Source of the DNA: an uncultured Verrucomicrobiota bacterium
GTDB lineage: Bacteria > Verrucomicrobiota > Verrucomicrobiia > Limisphaerales > UBA9464
Assembly: GCA_903907995.1 (NCBI GenBank)
Contig: CAIVQH010000037.1
Location: 1-64,000 of the forward strand
Length of the DNA: 64,000 bases
Direction of reading: 5' to 3'
The number at the start of each line of letters is the position of its first letter. The stretch's first letter is position 1. Of this stretch, positions 4,201-50,675 are shown piece by piece. The translations under genes and the position numbers were made by a program. Below the pieces are notes generated by a model that searched no databases, was not told the DNA's origin, and saw nothing but the letters and a program-made list of their open reading frames with translations.

Positions 4201-5454
4201 TCAGCCGAGGAAGAGGGGCACCAGATGCCGGTCGTAGATGTTCTCGGTCACGTTCTTCGCGACGATGGCCTCATTTGCTTTCAGCAGGTCGAGATAAGCT
4301 GCGCCCTTTTTTGCGGCGAGCTTGAAGGAGACGTGCAGCAGCTGGCGGAGGCTGGGATTGAATTCCGGATGGCTCGGGATGTGCCGGAGCGCGTTGGCGA
4401 ACTGCTCCCCGCGCCAACCTTTCACGGTTACGGCGGCGGGAAGCTTCGCGCGGTCAATGTCGATGACGGAGGCATAGGGCGCGCAAAGCTCATCCACGTG
4501 CTCCAAGGCGTAGGCGTAGATGTCCTGCGCCAACGCGAGACCCGCACCGCCGGCCTCGGCGAGGCCAATGAGCTCCTCCAGCCAGGTCGTGCCGGCGGTC
4601 TTGAGGTGCAGGCCGGCCCCCGTGCGGGCCAGCGCGCGGCGGATGATGGGATAGAGGGAGAACTTGTCGCTGCCGCTGTGGACGCTGAGCTTCAGGTTCG
4701 CGGGCAGACCGTAACGGTCCACCGCATGGGCAATGACCGCCAGGTCGTCATTGAACTCGCGCTCGAACTGCACGAGGTCGCCCACGTAATCCACGCCCTT
4801 GTTGAAGCGGCCGGTGAACTTGGGCGCGATCGTCTGGGCCCGGACGCCCTCGTCGGCGAGCAGCGCAAGGATGACGAGCAGTTCCGGCGGCGTCTGGGGC
4901 GCGTCCGTCTCGTCCATGGAGACCTCGGCGATGAAGTTCCCTTCCCCGCCCTTCCGCGTGGCGATGTGCCGGTAGATCTTCCCGGCATCCTGCACCGCCA
5001 GCAGGTACTTGCCCGCAATGCGCCGGATGTCGTCCGCCGTGGTCTGAAACGGCGTGGCAATGCCCGCGAGGGCGATGGTTCCGACCAGCTCCGGATGCCG
5101 CACCATGAAGGCCGCCAGCGCCTCGGGCGCGGCGGGTTTCCCGATGCTGTCCGCGACGTCGATGGTGAAGAAGTCCGAGCACGACAGGAAACGGTCCACC
5201 GTCTCCAGGCGGATATGATCGGCATCGACATGCCAGCCCCCCGTCCAACCGAGCGCCTTCACTGCCGCCTGCGCGGCGTCGAAGACGCTCTGCGGTTCCG
5301 AGCCGATAAAGGTGTGTTCGCGGTTCGACTTGTTCCAGACCGGCACCGCCGCGACGCCATGGGAGGCGAGCTTTTGGAAGGCCTGAAGCTGGGCGCGCGC
5401 CTGATGGGCAAACCGATCTCCGACGCCGATGGTGAAACGTTCCAACGTGAGCAT
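4201..5454 (-). CDS. Tagaturonate epimerase family (UxaE-like) sugar epimerase
   Basis: A 417-residue cytoplasmic enzyme of the UxaE family, whose founding member in Thermotoga converts D-tagaturonate to D-fructuronate. Family landmarks visible are GVGDRF at the N-terminus, VDADHIRLETVDRF, SMDETDAPQTP, GRFNKGVDYVGDLVQFERE, SVHSGSDKFSLYP and HLKTAGTTWLEE. The acids and histidines in these motifs are probable metal ligands. It is shorter than the Thermotoga enzyme (about 480 residues). It is the last gene of the rhamnose-type cluster, 124 bp after the small membrane protein. No other uronate genes (uxaA, uxaB, uxaC, kdgK) are nearby, so its substrate may differ. The start is the ATG at 5454; upstream in-frame codons to 5490 look non-coding. 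Confidence 0.8.
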   Translation of the reverse strand: MLTLERFTIGVGDRFAHQARAQLQAFQKLASHGVAAVPVWNKSNREHTFIGSEPQSVFDAAQAAVKALGWTGGWHVDADHIRLETVDRFLSCSDFFTIDVADSIGKPAAPEALAAFMVRHPELVGTIALAGIATPFQTTADDIRRIAGKYLLAVQDAGKIYRHIATRKGGEGNFIAEVSMDETDAPQTPPELLVILALLADEGVRAQTIAPKFTGRFNKGVDYVGDLVQFEREFNDDLAVIAHAVDRYGLPANLKLSVHSGSDKFSLYPIIRRALARTGAGLHLKTAGTTWLEELIGLAEAGGAGLALAQDIYAYALEHVDELCAPYASVIDIDRAKLPAAVTVKGWRGEQFANALRHIPSHPEFNPSLRQLLHVSFKLAAKKGAAYLDLLKANEAIVAKNVTENIYDRHLVPLFLG

Positions 5455-5578
5455 GGGAACGAGGATGACCGCTCGCCGCCAAGGTCGCAATGACCTTGGC
5501 GGCGCGTCCGAAAGGACAAGCTGTGGAAGACGGGCGAGACGTGCTGTCCTTCGGAAGGGCCAAAGGCCTGCTCTCCTC

Positions 5579-5881
5579 TCACCGCTTAACCGGCAGGGAC
5601 AATCCCCAGAGAAAAAAGGCGAAAGCCATCAGCCATCCGGTCGAGGCAACCCACTTTAGTTTGCGTAGGAAGAAGGGTGCGACCAGGAAGAGCACCGGCC
5701 AAGAGATCCACAACGCCGGCGCAGCAACCCATTCAAAGGCAGTTGACCAGGGGCTGAGGCGGGGAAGCAAATACACATCACAGACACCGCAGAGCCACGC
5801 GAAGGCCAATAGCGCTTCCATCACAATGAACAGAATGCGCCAGCGAGAATACTCGCCACTCCGTTTAATGACTTCGTTCAT
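5579..5881 (-). CDS. Small integral membrane protein of unknown function
   Basis: About 100 residues starting MNEVIKRSGEYSRW, with three likely transmembrane segments (RILFIVMEALLAFAWLCGV; FEWVAAPALWISWPVLFLV; ASTGWLMAFAFFLWGL) and a basic C-terminus LPVKR. It lies between the UxaE-like and UPF0261 genes on the same strand with sizeable gaps (124 and 153 bp), so it may be transcribed separately. The frame can be extended to 5953 but the extra 24 residues are not hydrophobic or conserved-looking. I recognise no family. It is less GC-rich than its neighbours, compatible with recent arrival. Confidence 0.5.
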   Translation of the reverse strand: MNEVIKRSGEYSRWRILFIVMEALLAFAWLCGVCDVYLLPRLSPWSTAFEWVAAPALWISWPVLFLVAPFFLRKLKWVASTGWLMAFAFFLWGLSLPVKR

Positions 5882-6034
5882 TGGAGCAAACCATACCTTG
5901 CCTCGCAGACCGTCCAACACACGTATACGCGGTGCCCAAGGAAAGCGAGTCAAAGACCCAGGCCGGGGTCTCCGTCCCTCTTTGTTCCTTGGTTCCTTTG
6001 CTGTTTAGCTACCCCCCTTCTCCGCGCTCAAATC

Positions 6035-7255
6035 TCACCGCTTCGCCACGGCCGCCATATTCTTCAGCAACTCCCGCACGCAGACGTCGGCGAAGGCGGG
6101 GTCATTGATGTTGCCGTCATATTCGAGGATCGGAATGCCCGGGCGCAGGTGGCGCTTCCATTCGTCGAAGAGCGCCGCATCGGCTTCGGGCCAGTAAAAC
6201 GGCTGGCCGGGGGCACTGATGACGCTGATGCCCTTCAGCGGTAGGAGCACTGTCACCGGGCCGGTCGAGAGATTGCACTTCTCCGCCAGGATGCTGCCGA
6301 GCTGCGCGCATTCCTCGGGGGTGGTGCGCATGAGGGTCACCTGGGCGTTGTGGTGGTAGAAGCGGCGGCCCGCGTACTTGGCGGGCACACTGGCGGGTTC
6401 ACCGAAGTTCACCATGTCGAGGCAGCCAGGCGTGAGAATGGCCGGCACGCCGTGGCGGGCGGCGGCTTCGCAGCGGGTCGGCCCGGCGTTCAGCACGCCG
6501 CCGACCAGCTCGTCGGCCCACTCGGTGGTGGTGATGTCGAGCACACCTGCCGGGATGCCGGCCTCGATGAGCGATTCCATGGTGCGCCCGCCGTTACCGG
6601 TGGCGGCGAAGATCATCACCTCGTAGCCGGCGGCTTCCAGCAGGCCGCGCGCGTGCGTGACACAGGGCGTGGTGTTGCCGAACTGCGACGCGACGATCAC
6701 CGGCCGGTCGGCCGCGCCCGCCGGCACCTGTGCCTCGACCATGCCGCAGATAGCTCCGGCGGCCTGCGCGAGCAGTCTGCGCGACAGGCGGTTCAGGCCC
6801 GCGACATCCACGACGCTCGGCATCATCACGACGTCCTTCACGCCCACGTAAGGCGCGGTGTTGCCGCTGGCGAGGGTGGAGACCATCAGCTTGGGGAAAC
6901 CGACCGGCAGCGCGCGCATCGCGGCGGTGCAGATGGCCGTGCCGCCGCCGCCGCCGAGCGAGATGACGCCGTCAATGCGCCCCTCGCGCTGGAGCCGGGC
7001 CAGCACGATAGGGGCACCCTTGGTCATGGCGGCCACGGCCTCGCCCCGGTCGCGCCGGGCGACGATGGCGGCCAGGTCCGCACCGGCCGCCGAAGCGATC
7101 TCGGTCCGCAGCACGTCGGGCTGGACGCGGGGCGCGTCAAGCGCGCCGACATCGACGAGCAGCGTGTGGTGGCCGCGCGCACGGATGAGTTCGGCAACGT
7201 AGCCGTGCTCTTCGCCTTTGGTGTCGAACGTGCCGAGAACTGCGATGGTGGCCAT
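6035..7255 (-). CDS. Tm-1-like / UPF0261 ATP-binding domain protein
   Basis: A 406-residue protein opening MATIAVLGTFDTKGEEH, the hallmark start of the Tm-1-like (UPF0261) family. Other family features are the glycine-rich ISLGGGGGT loop, a KLMVSTLASGN segment, the FGNTTPCVTHARGLLE motif that opens the second half, and FAATGNGGRTMESLIEAG. In the plant Tm-1 protein the equivalent domain binds ATP and blocks viral helicase; the bacterial role is not settled. Bacterial members often neighbour a TIM-barrel PEP-hydrolase-like gene, which is absent here. Instead it lies downstream of rhaM, separated by 175 bp containing a 6-bp repeat island, so a role in sugar-acid metabolism is only suggested by context. 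Confidence 0.8.
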   Translation of the reverse strand: MATIAVLGTFDTKGEEHGYVAELIRARGHHTLLVDVGALDAPRVQPDVLRTEIASAAGADLAAIVARRDRGEAVAAMTKGAPIVLARLQREGRIDGVISLGGGGGTAICTAAMRALPVGFPKLMVSTLASGNTAPYVGVKDVVMMPSVVDVAGLNRLSRRLLAQAAGAICGMVEAQVPAGAADRPVIVASQFGNTTPCVTHARGLLEAAGYEVMIFAATGNGGRTMESLIEAGIPAGVLDITTTEWADELVGGVLNAGPTRCEAAARHGVPAILTPGCLDMVNFGEPASVPAKYAGRRFYHHNAQVTLMRTTPEECAQLGSILAEKCNLSTGPVTVLLPLKGISVISAPGQPFYWPEADAALFDEWKRHLRPGIPILEYDGNINDPAFADVCVRELLKNMAAVAKR

Positions 7256-45538: not shown

Positions 45539-46615
45539 ATGATCCGCAACGTCATCTTCGACTGGTCCGGCACGCTGGTGGACGATCTGCCGGCGGTCTG
45601 GGAGGCCAGCAACCACTGCTTCGAGCGCGCGGGCGTGCCGCCGCTCTCGCTGGAGGAGTTCCGGGCGGAGTTCCGGCTGCCCTACCGGGATTTTTACGAC
45701 AAGTTTGTGCCCAATGTGCCGCTCGACGAGTTGGAGGGCTGGTTCCGGACGAAGTTCATGACGTGCCAGGAATCTGTGGTCGCGCTGCCACATGCCCGCG
45801 AGTTCCTCGAGTTTTGCGCGGCCCGCGAACTGCGGACTTTTTTGCTGAGCACCGTGCATCCGCTGGCCTACGCGCACCAGGCCCGGGCCACGGGGCTGGG
45901 CGGATTCATCCAGACACCCTACGCGGGCATCGCTGACAAGCGGGCGAAGATCGCCGAGCTGCTCGCCGACCACACGCTCGCCGCCGAGGAAACGGTGTTC
46001 ATCGGCGACATGGAGCATGACATCGAAACGGCGCGGCATGGCGGCATCCACAGCGTGGCGGTACTCACGGGCTACAATTCGCTCGCCCAGCTCCGGGCCG
46101 CGCAGCCGGACCTTGTGGTCGAACATCTCGGCGAGCTGCGCGCGGTGCTGGAGCGCAATGACGGCCAGTTGCCGGTGGTCAAAACCGGCTCGTTCATCCC
46201 CGCCGCCAAGCGCTGGCCGCTGGCCACGGTGGGCGCACTCGTGTTCAACGACGCCGGCCAGGTGCTGATGATCCGCACGCACAAGTGGTCGCATCACTGG
46301 GGCATTCCGGGCGGCAAGATCGAATGGGGCGAGCGCCACGAGGACGCGCTGCACCGCGAGGTGAAGGAGGAGACCGGCCTCGACGTGACGGACGTGCGCT
46401 TCGTGATGGTGCAGGATGCCATCCAGCCGCCGGAGTTTTACAAGGACGCCCACTTCCTGCTGTTGAACTACACCTGCGTCGCCCATGGCGCACAGCCGCT
46501 GCAGCTCAACGACGAGGCCGAGGAATGGCTGTGGGTGACAATGGACGAGGCCTTCGCGCTGGAGCTGAACGGACCGACGCGGGTGCTGCTGGAGGAAGTA
46601 AAAAGGAAAAATTAA
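45539..46615 (+). CDS. HAD-like phosphatase fused to a Nudix hydrolase
   Basis: A 358-residue two-domain enzyme. Residues 1-205 are HAD-like: motif I FDWSGTLVDD (nucleophile Asp 8; the usual second Asp is Ser 10), motif II in FLLSTVHP, motif III Lys in IADKRAKIAEL, motif IV FIGDMEHD. Residues 220-358 are Nudix, with a perfect box GG-KIEWGE-x7-REVKEETGL, preceded by HKWSHHWGIPGGK. Nudix enzymes cut nucleoside-diphosphate-type bonds. folB starts 73 bp later, and folate synthesis needs a pyrophosphatase plus a phosphatase before FolB, so the fusion is a candidate for dihydroneopterin triphosphate breakdown (inference). The Ser 10 change weakens the phosphatase half. Its last codons lie in a heptanucleotide repeat. 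Confidence 0.85.
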   Translation: MIRNVIFDWSGTLVDDLPAVWEASNHCFERAGVPPLSLEEFRAEFRLPYRDFYDKFVPNVPLDELEGWFRTKFMTCQESVVALPHAREFLEFCAARELRTFLLSTVHPLAYAHQARATGLGGFIQTPYAGIADKRAKIAELLADHTLAAEETVFIGDMEHDIETARHGGIHSVAVLTGYNSLAQLRAAQPDLVVEHLGELRAVLERNDGQLPVVKTGSFIPAAKRWPLATVGALVFNDAGQVLMIRTHKWSHHWGIPGGKIEWGERHEDALHREVKEETGLDVTDVRFVMVQDAIQPPEFYKDAHFLLLNYTCVAHGAQPLQLNDEAEEWLWVTMDEAFALELNGPTRVLLEEVKRKN

Positions 46616-46682
46616 AAAGGAAAAATGAATGCGGTTTCCCCGATTCACGCATCACTCCCGCCTTCATCCATAATTCATAATT
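46600..46682. repeat. Heptanucleotide repeats spanning the HAD-Nudix stop and the folB leader
   Basis: 46600-46627 reads AAAAAGG, AAAAATT, AAAAAGG, AAAAATG; the stop codon TAA (46613-46615) lies within it, so the repeat supplies the C-terminal KRKN. A second array, CATAATT, CATAATT, fills 46669-46682, ending five bases before the folB ATG. Two unrelated 7-bp units flank a 41-bp spacer. Confidence 0.75.
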
Positions 46683-46687
46683 CCCCC

Positions 46688-47035
46688 ATGGATCTGATCA
46701 CCCTGACCGATCTCGAAGTTAGCTACCACGTCGGCGTTCCGGACGCGGAGCGGGCCGCGCCGCAGCGGCTGCTGCTCACCATCGAAATGCGGAGTGACTT
46801 CACCGCTGCAGCCGAGGGTGACGACCTAACCAGGACTATCGACTACTACCGGGTGAGCCGCCGACTCCTGACCTTCGGCGAGGGGCGCAGCTGGAAGCTG
46901 ATCGAGAAGCTCGCGGTGGACATCGCGGAATTTGTGCTTGCGGAATTCCAGCCGGCGGGCGTTAGCGTCGAGGTGAAGAAGTTCATCCTGCCAGAGACCC
47001 GGCATGTGTCGGTGAAGGTGGAACGGAATCGGTGA
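46688..47035 (+). CDS. folB: Dihydroneopterin aldolase
   Basis: Converts 7,8-dihydroneopterin to 6-hydroxymethyl-dihydropterin in folate synthesis. The 115-residue protein has LTDLEVSYHVGVPDAERAAP with the catalytic Tyr/Glu region, RLLLTIEMRSDFTAAAEGDD, TIDYYRVSRRLLTFG and the pterin-binding Lys in VEVKKFILPETRHVSVKVER. Length is typical (about 120). It follows the HAD-Nudix gene with a 72-bp repeat-filled gap. folK and folP are not in the window. No Shine-Dalgarno is visible since the leader is repeat sequence. Confidence 0.93.
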   Translation: MDLITLTDLEVSYHVGVPDAERAAPQRLLLTIEMRSDFTAAAEGDDLTRTIDYYRVSRRLLTFGEGRSWKLIEKLAVDIAEFVLAEFQPAGVSVEVKKFILPETRHVSVKVERNR

Positions 47036-47037
47036 TG

Positions 47038-47155
47038 CGCCAAAGTAGGACGGGGCGTCCCGCCCGTCTTCCATCTTCTTCTTGCACCCGAAACGTCTTG
47101 GGATTGAAAAAGCACATTTTGAGGACGGGCGGGGACGCCCCGTCCTACTTTGGCG
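47038..47155. repeat. 118-bp inverted repeat with 31-bp arms, between convergent genes
   Basis: CGCCAAAGTAGGACGGGGCG (from 47038) is matched inverted by CGCCCCGTCCTACTTTGGCG ending at 47155; pairing continues inward through the CCGCCCGTC block with one extra C on the right arm. The loop is about 55 bp. It begins three bases after the folB stop and ends 42 bp before the M42 peptidase stop, so it may terminate both convergent genes. Confidence 0.9.
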
Positions 47156-48377: not shown

Positions 48378-49523
48378 ATGATCAAGAACCCAAACCGCCT
48401 TCCCGTATGGCTGCTTCCGGCTCTCGGCCTCGTGCCGCTCAGTGCCTCAGCCTTGTCCTATACCCTGACCGACCTCGGCACCTTTGGCGGCACCGCGAGC
48501 GAGGCCTTCGGCATCAACGCCGCCGGCACGGTCGTCGGCGATGCCAACTTTGCCGGTGATACTTCTAGCCACGCCTACAGCTATAGCGGGGGGATAAAGA
48601 CCGACCTTGGCACCTTGGGTGGCACTGCCAGCGCCGCCTACGGAATCAATGCCGGCGGCACGGTGGTCGGCAGCGCCTACCTCGCAGGCGACAATGTCAG
48701 CCATGCCTTTCTACATGACGGCACCACGATCTCCGACCTCGGCACCTTGGGCGGCACTTTCAGCGAGGCCCTGCATATCAATGCCGCCGGCACGGTAGTC
48801 GGCGATTCGAACATCACCGGCGATGCGGTCACTCATGCGTTCCGTTATAGCGGCACCACGATGACCGATCTCGGCACCTTGCCGGGCGGGGCCAACAGCT
48901 ATGCTGTCGGCATAAACACGGCCGGCACGGCGGTCGGCGCTTCTGACATCACCGGTGGGGCCCAACACGCCTTCAGCTACAGCGGTGGCGTGATGACCGA
49001 TCTCGGCACCTTGCCCCAAGGCGCTTACAGCTACGCCAGCGGGATCAATGCCGCCGGCACCGTGGTCGGCACCTCCAATATCGGCGGCAGTGCCTACCAT
49101 GCTTTCAGCTACAGCGGCGGGGTGATGACCGATCTGGGCAGCTTGAGTGATGGACTGGGCCATCATGGCAATCAGAGTCAAGCCTTCGCCATCAACTCCC
49201 TCGACATGGTGGTCGGGGATTCCAACGACCGTGCTGGTCACCCCCAACATGCCTTTGTTTATGAAGGAGGGCTCATGGTGGACTTGAACACGGCCATTCC
49301 CGGATCGCCAGGTTGGCTGCTCGGTCAGGCCACGGATATCAATGACGACGGCCTGATCGTCGGCATCGGGACCGATCCGGAGGGTGACACCCACGGCTTC
49401 CTCCTCACGCCCAACGCGACGCCGGTGCCCGAACCCGGCGAGTACGCGGCGGTGGCCGGGATGGCGCTGGTCGCTTTCGGAGCCTGGCGGCACACACGCC
49501 TGGCGTCCGTGCGGAAGAACTGA
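48378..49523 (+). CDS. HAF-repeat protein with PEP-CTERM anchor (copy 1)
   Basis: A 381-residue secreted protein. Signal peptide (LPVWLLPALGLVPLSASA), then about seven HAF repeats of roughly 40 residues with the pattern TDLGTLGG-x-SAAYGIN-x-GTVVGSA-x-SHAFSYSGG, and a C-terminal PEP-CTERM tail (VPEPGEYAAVAGMALVAFGA, then WRHTRLASVRKN). HAF repeats are predicted beta-propeller-like extracellular modules of unknown function; the tail implies exosortase processing. Its paralogue follows after 22 bp, so the two form an operon. It diverges from the M42 peptidase gene. Confidence 0.9.
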   Translation: MIKNPNRLPVWLLPALGLVPLSASALSYTLTDLGTFGGTASEAFGINAAGTVVGDANFAGDTSSHAYSYSGGIKTDLGTLGGTASAAYGINAGGTVVGSAYLAGDNVSHAFLHDGTTISDLGTLGGTFSEALHINAAGTVVGDSNITGDAVTHAFRYSGTTMTDLGTLPGGANSYAVGINTAGTAVGASDITGGAQHAFSYSGGVMTDLGTLPQGAYSYASGINAAGTVVGTSNIGGSAYHAFSYSGGVMTDLGSLSDGLGHHGNQSQAFAINSLDMVVGDSNDRAGHPQHAFVYEGGLMVDLNTAIPGSPGWLLGQATDINDDGLIVGIGTDPEGDTHGFLLTPNATPVPEPGEYAAVAGMALVAFGAWRHTRLASVRKN

Positions 49524-49544
49524 ACTTCCAACCCTCCATCCTTC

Positions 49545-50675
49545 ATGAAACCACTCCTGTCCCTCGCCAGCCTGCTTCCGGCCCTCGGCCTCCTGCCCTT
49601 CGCCGCCTCCGCGCAGACCTACACGCTGACCGACCTCGGCACCTTGGGCGGTTCTCAAAGCGGTGCCTATGGTATCAACGCCGCCGGCACGGTGGTCGGC
49701 TATTCCAATCTGGCCGGCGATGTCGCCGCCCATGCCTTCAGTTATGGCGGCGGAGTGATGACCGACCTCGGCAGCTTGGGCGGTTCTTATAGCAGCGCCG
49801 CTGCCATCAACGCCGGCGGCACGGTGGTCGGCAGTTCCGTATTGGCCGACAATGCCACCACGCATGCCTTCAGTTCCAACGGCGGGGTGATGACCGATCT
49901 CGGCAGCCTGGGCGGTTCTAATAGCAGCGCCGCTGCCATCAACACCGGCGGCACGGTGGTCGGCGGTTCCTATACCGCCAGCGATGCCGCCTACCATGCG
50001 TTCAGCTACAGCGGCGGGGTGATGACGGATCTTGGCACCCTGGGCGGTGCCACCAGCCTGGCCGTCGGTATCAACGCCAGCGGCACGGTGTTCGGTCTTG
50101 CCACCACCGTCGGCGATGAGAACACCTACCATGCGTTCAGTTCCCTAGGCGGGGTGATGACCGATCTCGGCATCTTCGGCGACATCAACAGCACTGCCGC
50201 GGCCAGCAACGCGGCCGGCACGCTGGTCGGCGCTTTCTCGCCTGACGGTGCGGGTGCCACCTTCCACGCGCTCAGCTTTAGCGGCGGCGTGCGGAGGGAC
50301 CTTGGCACCTTGGGTCTCGGTAAGCTCAGCTTTGCCAACGCCATCAACAACGCCGGCACGGTGGTCGGAAAATCCACGACCGACTCTCTTGGCAACACTC
50401 AACATGCCTTTATCTTCCGCGGCGGCTTCATGCTGGATTTGAACGGAGCGATCCCCGGTGCTCCGGGCTGGGAACTTACGGATGCCAATGGCATCAACGA
50501 CGCCGGCCAGATTGTCGGCGTCGGGGAGAATCCTCAGGGACATCTCGATGCCTACCTGCTCACGCCCATAACGGCCGTGCCCGAACCCGGCGAATACGCA
50601 GGGCTGGCGGGGCTGACTCTGGTCGCCTTCGGAGCCTGGCGGCGCACACGCCATGCGTCCGTGGCGAGGAACTGA
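49545..50675 (+). CDS. HAF-repeat protein with PEP-CTERM anchor (copy 2)
   Basis: A 376-residue paralogue of the preceding gene: signal peptide (LLPALGLLPFAASAQ), seven HAF units (MTDLGSLGGSYSSAAAINAG, HAFSSNGGVMTDLGSLGGSN and others), and the tail VPEPGEYAGLAGLTLVAFGA then WRRTRHASVARN. The tails of both copies are almost identical while the repeats differ in detail, suggesting tandem duplication followed by repeat shuffling. Both are presumably displayed on or released from the cell surface together. Confidence 0.9.
   Translation: MKPLLSLASLLPALGLLPFAASAQTYTLTDLGTLGGSQSGAYGINAAGTVVGYSNLAGDVAAHAFSYGGGVMTDLGSLGGSYSSAAAINAGGTVVGSSVLADNATTHAFSSNGGVMTDLGSLGGSNSSAAAINTGGTVVGGSYTASDAAYHAFSYSGGVMTDLGTLGGATSLAVGINASGTVFGLATTVGDENTYHAFSSLGGVMTDLGIFGDINSTAAASNAAGTLVGAFSPDGAGATFHALSFSGGVRRDLGTLGLGKLSFANAINNAGTVVGKSTTDSLGNTQHAFIFRGGFMLDLNGAIPGAPGWELTDANGINDAGQIVGVGENPQGHLDAYLLTPITAVPEPGEYAGLAGLTLVAFGAWRRTRHASVARN

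Follow-up and report, generated by a model that had tools for sequence, protein, structure and literature searches.

The HAD-Nudix gene and its catalytic residues

The window analysed here, a 64,000-nucleotide stretch of contig CAIVQH010000037.1 from an uncultured Verrucomicrobiota bacterium, contains a gene for a fused HAD and Nudix protein (45539-46615, forward strand) directly upstream of folB, the gene for dihydroneopterin aldolase (46688-47035, forward strand). The product of the fusion gene is proposed to be a bifunctional dihydroneopterin triphosphate pyrophosphatase/dihydroneopterin monophosphate phosphatase. The first-pass annotation had described such a fusion next to folB, and this is confirmed here: the reading frame encodes 358 amino acids in a single frame without interruption, Pfam detects both domains and folB follows after a gap of 72 bp.

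Pfam places HAD_2 at residues 5-175 (2.6e-15) and NUDIX at residues 229-344 (7.2e-26), both well over the cut-off. With an AlphaFold2 model (21 aligned relatives, mean pLDDT 90.5, pTM 0.64) and Foldseek, the HAD domain was delimited to residues 1-206 (45539-46156, forward strand) and the Nudix domain to residues 225-358 (46211-46612, forward strand); residues 215-224 are loose in the model. The first half of the model resembles HAD phosphatases, with 2ah5, a predicted phosphatase of COG0546, as the nearest solved structure, and the nearest solved folds for the second half are Nudix enzymes, namely NudI-type nucleoside triphosphatases. A search of the source genome with the whole protein returned the locus itself and three weaker, partial matches. 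A short tandem duplication (46600-46627; AAAAAGGAAAAATT / AAAAAGGAAAAATG) extends from the last bases of the fusion gene into the first part of the gap before folB. The promoter and terminator scan gave no promoter-like sites, and 4 terminator-like sites against 2.6 expected.

The folB gene encodes 115 amino acids (Pfam FolB, 5.6e-24). Its start is probably the ATG at 46688 and not at 46625: the alignments with most homologues begin at the residue encoded at 46688. The product scores over the cut-off with the Pfam FolB model (85.3 bits, cut-off 31.8) and with the NCBIfam FolB domain model (79.1 bits, cut-off 45.05), and below it with the folB equivalog TIGR00525 (66.4 bits, cut-off 72.15).

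HAD motif I of the window protein reads D8-W9-S10-G11-T12 (45560-45574, forward strand). In the alignment to 2ah5, Ser10 occupies the position of the second Asp of DxDGT, which is described as the general acid/base of HAD phosphatases (PMC8069645). That this Ser, already pointed out in the first-pass annotation, is real and a family trait follows from the alignment, in which all 111 family rows covering motif I read DWSGT; the second Asp is thus lacking throughout. The other HAD motifs are intact (S104, K134 and G156-D157...D161). Among the relatives, the residues of superfamily motifs I to IV are retained, with the nucleophile D8 found in 111/111 rows and S/T104, K134, D157 and D161 each in 112/112; G156 is kept in every row covering its position. 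His160 of motif IV (G156-D-M-E-H160-D161, 46004-46021, forward strand) is likewise present in all 112 rows. These HAD counts omit the remote relatives L076, L115 and L116, and one more row is gapped at motif I.

The three remote HAD relatives provide a hint as to how the loss of the second Asp might be compensated. Two of them carry Asn at this position and have the motif IV His (GDMEHD and GDTTHD), whereas the third, in which the usual Asp is present, has Tyr instead; in L076 the relative lies at 143-727. Judged from these few cases, His160 may be a candidate stand-in for the lost Asp.

The Nudix box (residues 259-281; 46313-46381, forward strand) was evaluated in the alignment of 67 full-length rows, which include the window protein and omit L067, L069, L071, L072 and L076, and for Nudix also L073. 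G259, E265, R273, E274, E277, E278 and L281 are invariant in all 67 rows, as expected for the Nudix superfamily, and the Gly at 280 is variable among relatives.

Linkage to folB in the window's phylum

A scan of genome contigs yielded 72 loci with flanks of up to 8 kb, often less. Full-length HAD-Nudix fusions are found in 66 of them, so the arrangement is not a product of chance. According to the record titles, 64 loci belong to Verrucomicrobiota or a subgroup and six are titled only 'bacterium'. One is from Clostridia (L076, the remote HAD, here without Nudix) and one is titled 'Deltaproteobacteria bacterium' (L074, Myxococcota by tree labelling).

In 61 of the 72 loci folB lies downstream on the same strand, 9-868 bp past the end of the matched stretch, and four of these have folB within the same chain. 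The other 11 comprise three loci at a contig end (L011, L067 and L071), the remote HAD, L074, whose cluster has folB farther upstream, and six loci with no folB in the stretch examined. The genome survey that the first-pass annotation had called for thus finds the fusion mostly adjoining folB, and, as described below, behind folE and a PTPS family gene in a second phylum.

Other genes of the window do not share this linkage. Eleven of them were checked across the 72 loci: the gene for an M42 peptidase recurs in five and each of the remaining genes in at most two, with the gamma carbonic anhydrase gene directly upstream of the fusion recurring in one. With flanks of at most 8 kb this is a fair test for the nearer genes and not for the far ones.

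In addition, 387 genomes were drawn from the window's phylum and searched with the fusion as query at a threshold of 1e-15. Matches were obtained in 57 genomes, three of them weak or partial (G134, G189 and G222). FolB is present in 345 of the 387 genomes, and these include all 54 with strong matches to the fusion, the window's genome among them. Besides the window, 15 HAD-Nudix loci of this survey were examined, and folB is close to the fusion in 13. L020 and L077 are apparently the same contig, both having a length of 82644, so the two locus sets partly overlap, and many rows are close relatives.

As a control, 20 folB loci of fusion-less genomes of the phylum, taken with about 3 kb on each side from among the highest scores of the FolB list and not at random, were searched with HAD and Nudix profiles of the family itself at 1e-3. 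Neither profile matched near folB in any of the 20 loci. Here the neighbours, named by reading the sequences, include folK-like (6), folP-like (5) and SDR-type (5) genes.

Two further observations concern the surroundings in the window. Directly after folB lies a perfect 24-nt inverted repeat (47038-47155) with arms separated by 70 nt. Its core has 18 copies in the genome at up to 2 mismatches, against 1 for a reversed control pattern, and 14 of the 18 are in facing pairs with a spacing of about 90-113 nt; the repeat belongs to a dispersed family. Farther downstream (48378-50675), two similar adjoining proteins rich in DLGTLGG-like repeats are encoded, and by reading of the sequence their C-terminal segment resembles a PEP-CTERM anchor.

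Fusions to FolB and relatives in a second phylum

The four loci with FolB in the same chain are of two kinds: L033, L065 and L075 encode HAD-Nudix-FolB in one frame, and L073 encodes HAD followed by FolB without Nudix. The phylum survey gave 38 HAD-only matches, of which 22 were fetched and examined and 16 were not. Ten of the 22 are HAD-FolB single chains and in eight folB adjoins the HAD gene. In a HAD-domain tree with 112 members, including two outgroups (three of 115 rows, L116, a short one and a copy, were dropped), the triple fusion is explained by three changes and HAD-FolB by two or three, with some long branches. Since the fusions need multiple changes on the tree, joining to FolB probably arose several times. 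Such a fusion suggests consecutive steps, an established line of reasoning that has been applied to B-vitamin genes (PMC4921024). The HAD-FolB and HAD-Nudix-FolB chains are in line with the earlier idea that the protein fills the gap in folate synthesis ahead of FolB, and by gene context that idea gains support.

In the phylum of L074, six of 46 genomes match: five contain full fusions, L074 included, and one a lone Nudix gene (L163). In all six loci folE and a PTPS family gene lie directly upstream (5/5 full fusions, with the lone Nudix gene in the same place), the PTPS gene sitting after folE and before the (HAD-)Nudix gene in L074 and L159-L163. The PTPS sequences of this cluster that were read have a CxxxHGH-type motif. 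Five of the six clusters also contain folB, which in L074 lies on the same strand and in L160, L161, L162 and L163 runs divergently from folE; in L159 no folB was found in the 8.3 kb examined. Pfam confirmed FolB, FolE, PTPS and Nudix for L163, FolB, FolE and PTPS for L074, FolE and PTPS for L160, and FolE for L162. The L074 cluster includes a RibD_C-type gene as well.

A stand-alone Nudix relative with 45% identity was also found in the window's phylum (L114, region 4277-6310). The end of this gene meets the start of a divergent DHPS-like gene, and the genome has a stronger DHPS elsewhere. The Nudix gene comes after a radical SAM gene resembling queE.

A candidate for the two dephosphorylations before FolB

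In the source genome FolE2, FolK, FolP and one FolB were found, and FolE type I was looked for and not found. The single PTPS of this genome has the Cys-type CxxxHGH motif, which we take to be that of QueD, and PTPS-III has Glu in its motif. Because of the Cys-type motif, a bypass of FolB by PTPS-III was judged unlikely for the source genome. PTPS-I, PTPS-II and PTPS-III with distinct motifs are described in PMC5041015.

A separate gene for NudB was searched for with the equivalog model NF006961 (curated cut-off 103 bits). None of the nine genomes tested has a match over the cut-off (one of 14 control genomes does), and a separate NudB gene was therefore rejected, though weaker Nudix matches are present in each of the nine. 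The best of these in the source genome is the fusion itself, with 27.8 bits. A fusion that never lies near folate genes, combined with a separate NudB-like gene, had been named in advance as one outcome that would contradict the proposal; the 61 folB-linked loci, the second-phylum clusters and the nine genomes do not show this outcome.

Taken with the genes for FolE2, FolB, FolK and FolP, the domains, the intact catalytic residues, the genomic linkage and the fusions are computed support for a hydrolase dedicated to folate synthesis, and we consider it probable that the protein converts dihydroneopterin triphosphate via the monophosphate to dihydroneopterin. FolE2 would make dihydroneopterin triphosphate, which the Nudix domain would cleave to dihydroneopterin monophosphate and pyrophosphate. 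The HAD domain would then remove the last phosphate through a phospho-Asp8 intermediate. FolB, encoded by the next gene or, in some relatives, part of the fusion protein itself, would turn the resulting dihydroneopterin into 6-hydroxymethyl-dihydropterin, which would go on to FolK and FolP. The substrates, the order of the steps and the working of the HAD site without the second Asp are what we infer. On balance we also favour the view that the HAD domain founds a family of dedicated dihydroneopterin monophosphate phosphatases, marked by DWSGT and the invariant motif IV His, and that HAD-Nudix(-FolB) proteins perform two or even three consecutive steps per chain on the way from dihydroneopterin triphosphate to 6-hydroxymethyl-dihydropterin, with a HAD phosphatase chemistry that lacks the usual acid/base Asp.

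Several findings weigh against this assignment. Gene context does not discriminate between dihydroneopterin triphosphate and a close pterin phosphate, and with Ser in motif I the usual general acid/base is lost, which may make the phosphatase activity slow or different. No folB was found in the stretches examined of L012, L013, L014, L029, L040 and L056 among the 72 loci, of L083 and L087 among the HAD-Nudix loci of the phylum survey, or near four of the 22 HAD-only loci, which form one family (L106, L107, L108 and L110). With FolB in 345 of the 387 genomes and matches to the fusion in 57, the steps must elsewhere fall to other enzymes, and because the NudB model has matches below its cut-off in each of the nine genomes tested, other Nudix enzymes could share the work. 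In a search of 21 genomes with HAD-FolB or a lone HAD, none has a close Nudix ortholog (best match 3e-9, against 1.2e-45 or better in three HAD-Nudix genomes); in these, either another enzyme cleaves the pyrophosphate or the HAD does more than one step. Two such genomes have matches to the NudB model (G024, 3e-10; G389, 1e-8), and these Nudix genes are possible candidates for the pyrophosphatase. The claim that one protein carries out both steps fits the gene context in the window's lineage and does not extend to relatives that keep HAD without Nudix.

Of the competing explanations, the one that survives best assigns the pathway reaction to Nudix alone, with HAD as a weak, regulatory, structural or side-product module and non-specific phosphatases acting on the monophosphate. 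The Ser in the acid/base position of all 111 rows would fit, as would L163, which retains Nudix without HAD behind folE and PTPS. In many loci, however, it is HAD and not Nudix that is kept and joined to FolB, and D8, K134, G156, D157 and D161 are conserved in all rows covering them. The motif I Ser also does not exclude a phosphatase, because a Staphylococcus HAD with the second Asp changed to Ala is reported to have kept, even raised, its activity (PMC11084212). We consider this explanation unlikely.

The protein might also serve damage control: it would destroy pterin or nucleotide phosphates that are oxidised or otherwise faulty, close to the folate pathway, and would not make the main intermediate. 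This would agree with the NudI-type triphosphatases as nearest solved Nudix folds, but the in-frame fusion with FolB and the place after folE suggest a step of the main line, and with no NudB over the cut-off in the nine genomes such a role seems quite improbable. A different pterin route using dihydroneopterin, for example to a reduced neopterin or monapterin cofactor, has very little probability. It could be read from the PTPS family gene preceding the second-phylum gene, the RibD_C-type gene in the L074 cluster and the slightly low folB equivalog score; yet the source genome has a single FolB and also FolK and FolP, and the same two chemical steps would apply. That the genes are neighbours by chance, or keep an inherited order of no functional significance, was rejected as scarcely credible: 64 of the 72 loci are titled as one phylum and six fusion loci have no folB nearby, but the remaining neighbours are scrambled, the tree calls for several changes to explain the joining to FolB, and the fusion follows folE in a second phylum.

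The dihydroneopterin triphosphate hydrolase proposed here can be compared with known systems. It shares with NudB/FolQ the Nudix box, the proposed reaction and the placement among folate genes (FolQ in folKEPQC of Lactococcus, PMC1971073), but its Nudix domain is fused to HAD and stays far below the NudB cut-off; NudB was compared by model score only. COG0546-like HAD phosphatases such as phosphoglycolate phosphatase and 2ah5 agree with it in fold and in motifs II to IV, whereas the window family has Ser for the second motif I Asp and ties to folate genes; its score with the phosphoglycolate phosphatase model TIGR01449 is 47.3 bits (cut-off 180). Identity as a phosphonatase was rejected, since the score with TIGR01422 is below the cut-off (31.1 bits, cut-off 220) and the likeness is mostly at motif I (best stretch, residues 2-47). 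A HAD phosphatase of another vitamin pathway, whose function was found via a fusion with a vitamin gene, likewise fills a missing phosphatase step; the vitamin and the pathway differ, and its table entry lists no Nudix partner.

A 2007 survey describes the pyrophosphatase gene as missing from most genomes and the phosphatase as non-specific (PMC1971073); NudB of E. coli was assigned about 2007 (cited in PMC5389931), and a paper of 2019 on algae and plants still gives a non-specific phosphatase (PMC6451014). Among the matches listed in a search of the open-access literature, no description of a HAD-Nudix or HAD-FolB folate enzyme was found. Of these features, the folds and the Nudix reaction were already known; novelty seems to lie in the combination, in the tie to FolB and in the candidate for a dedicated phosphatase.

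In bacterial folate synthesis, the two dephosphorylations that lead from dihydroneopterin triphosphate to the substrate of FolB are poorly assigned. A family that is repeatedly linked or fused to FolB offers a concrete candidate gene for both steps, together with natural single-chain constructs, and annotators could use it to close the gap in some of the Verrucomicrobiota and in some members of the second phylum.
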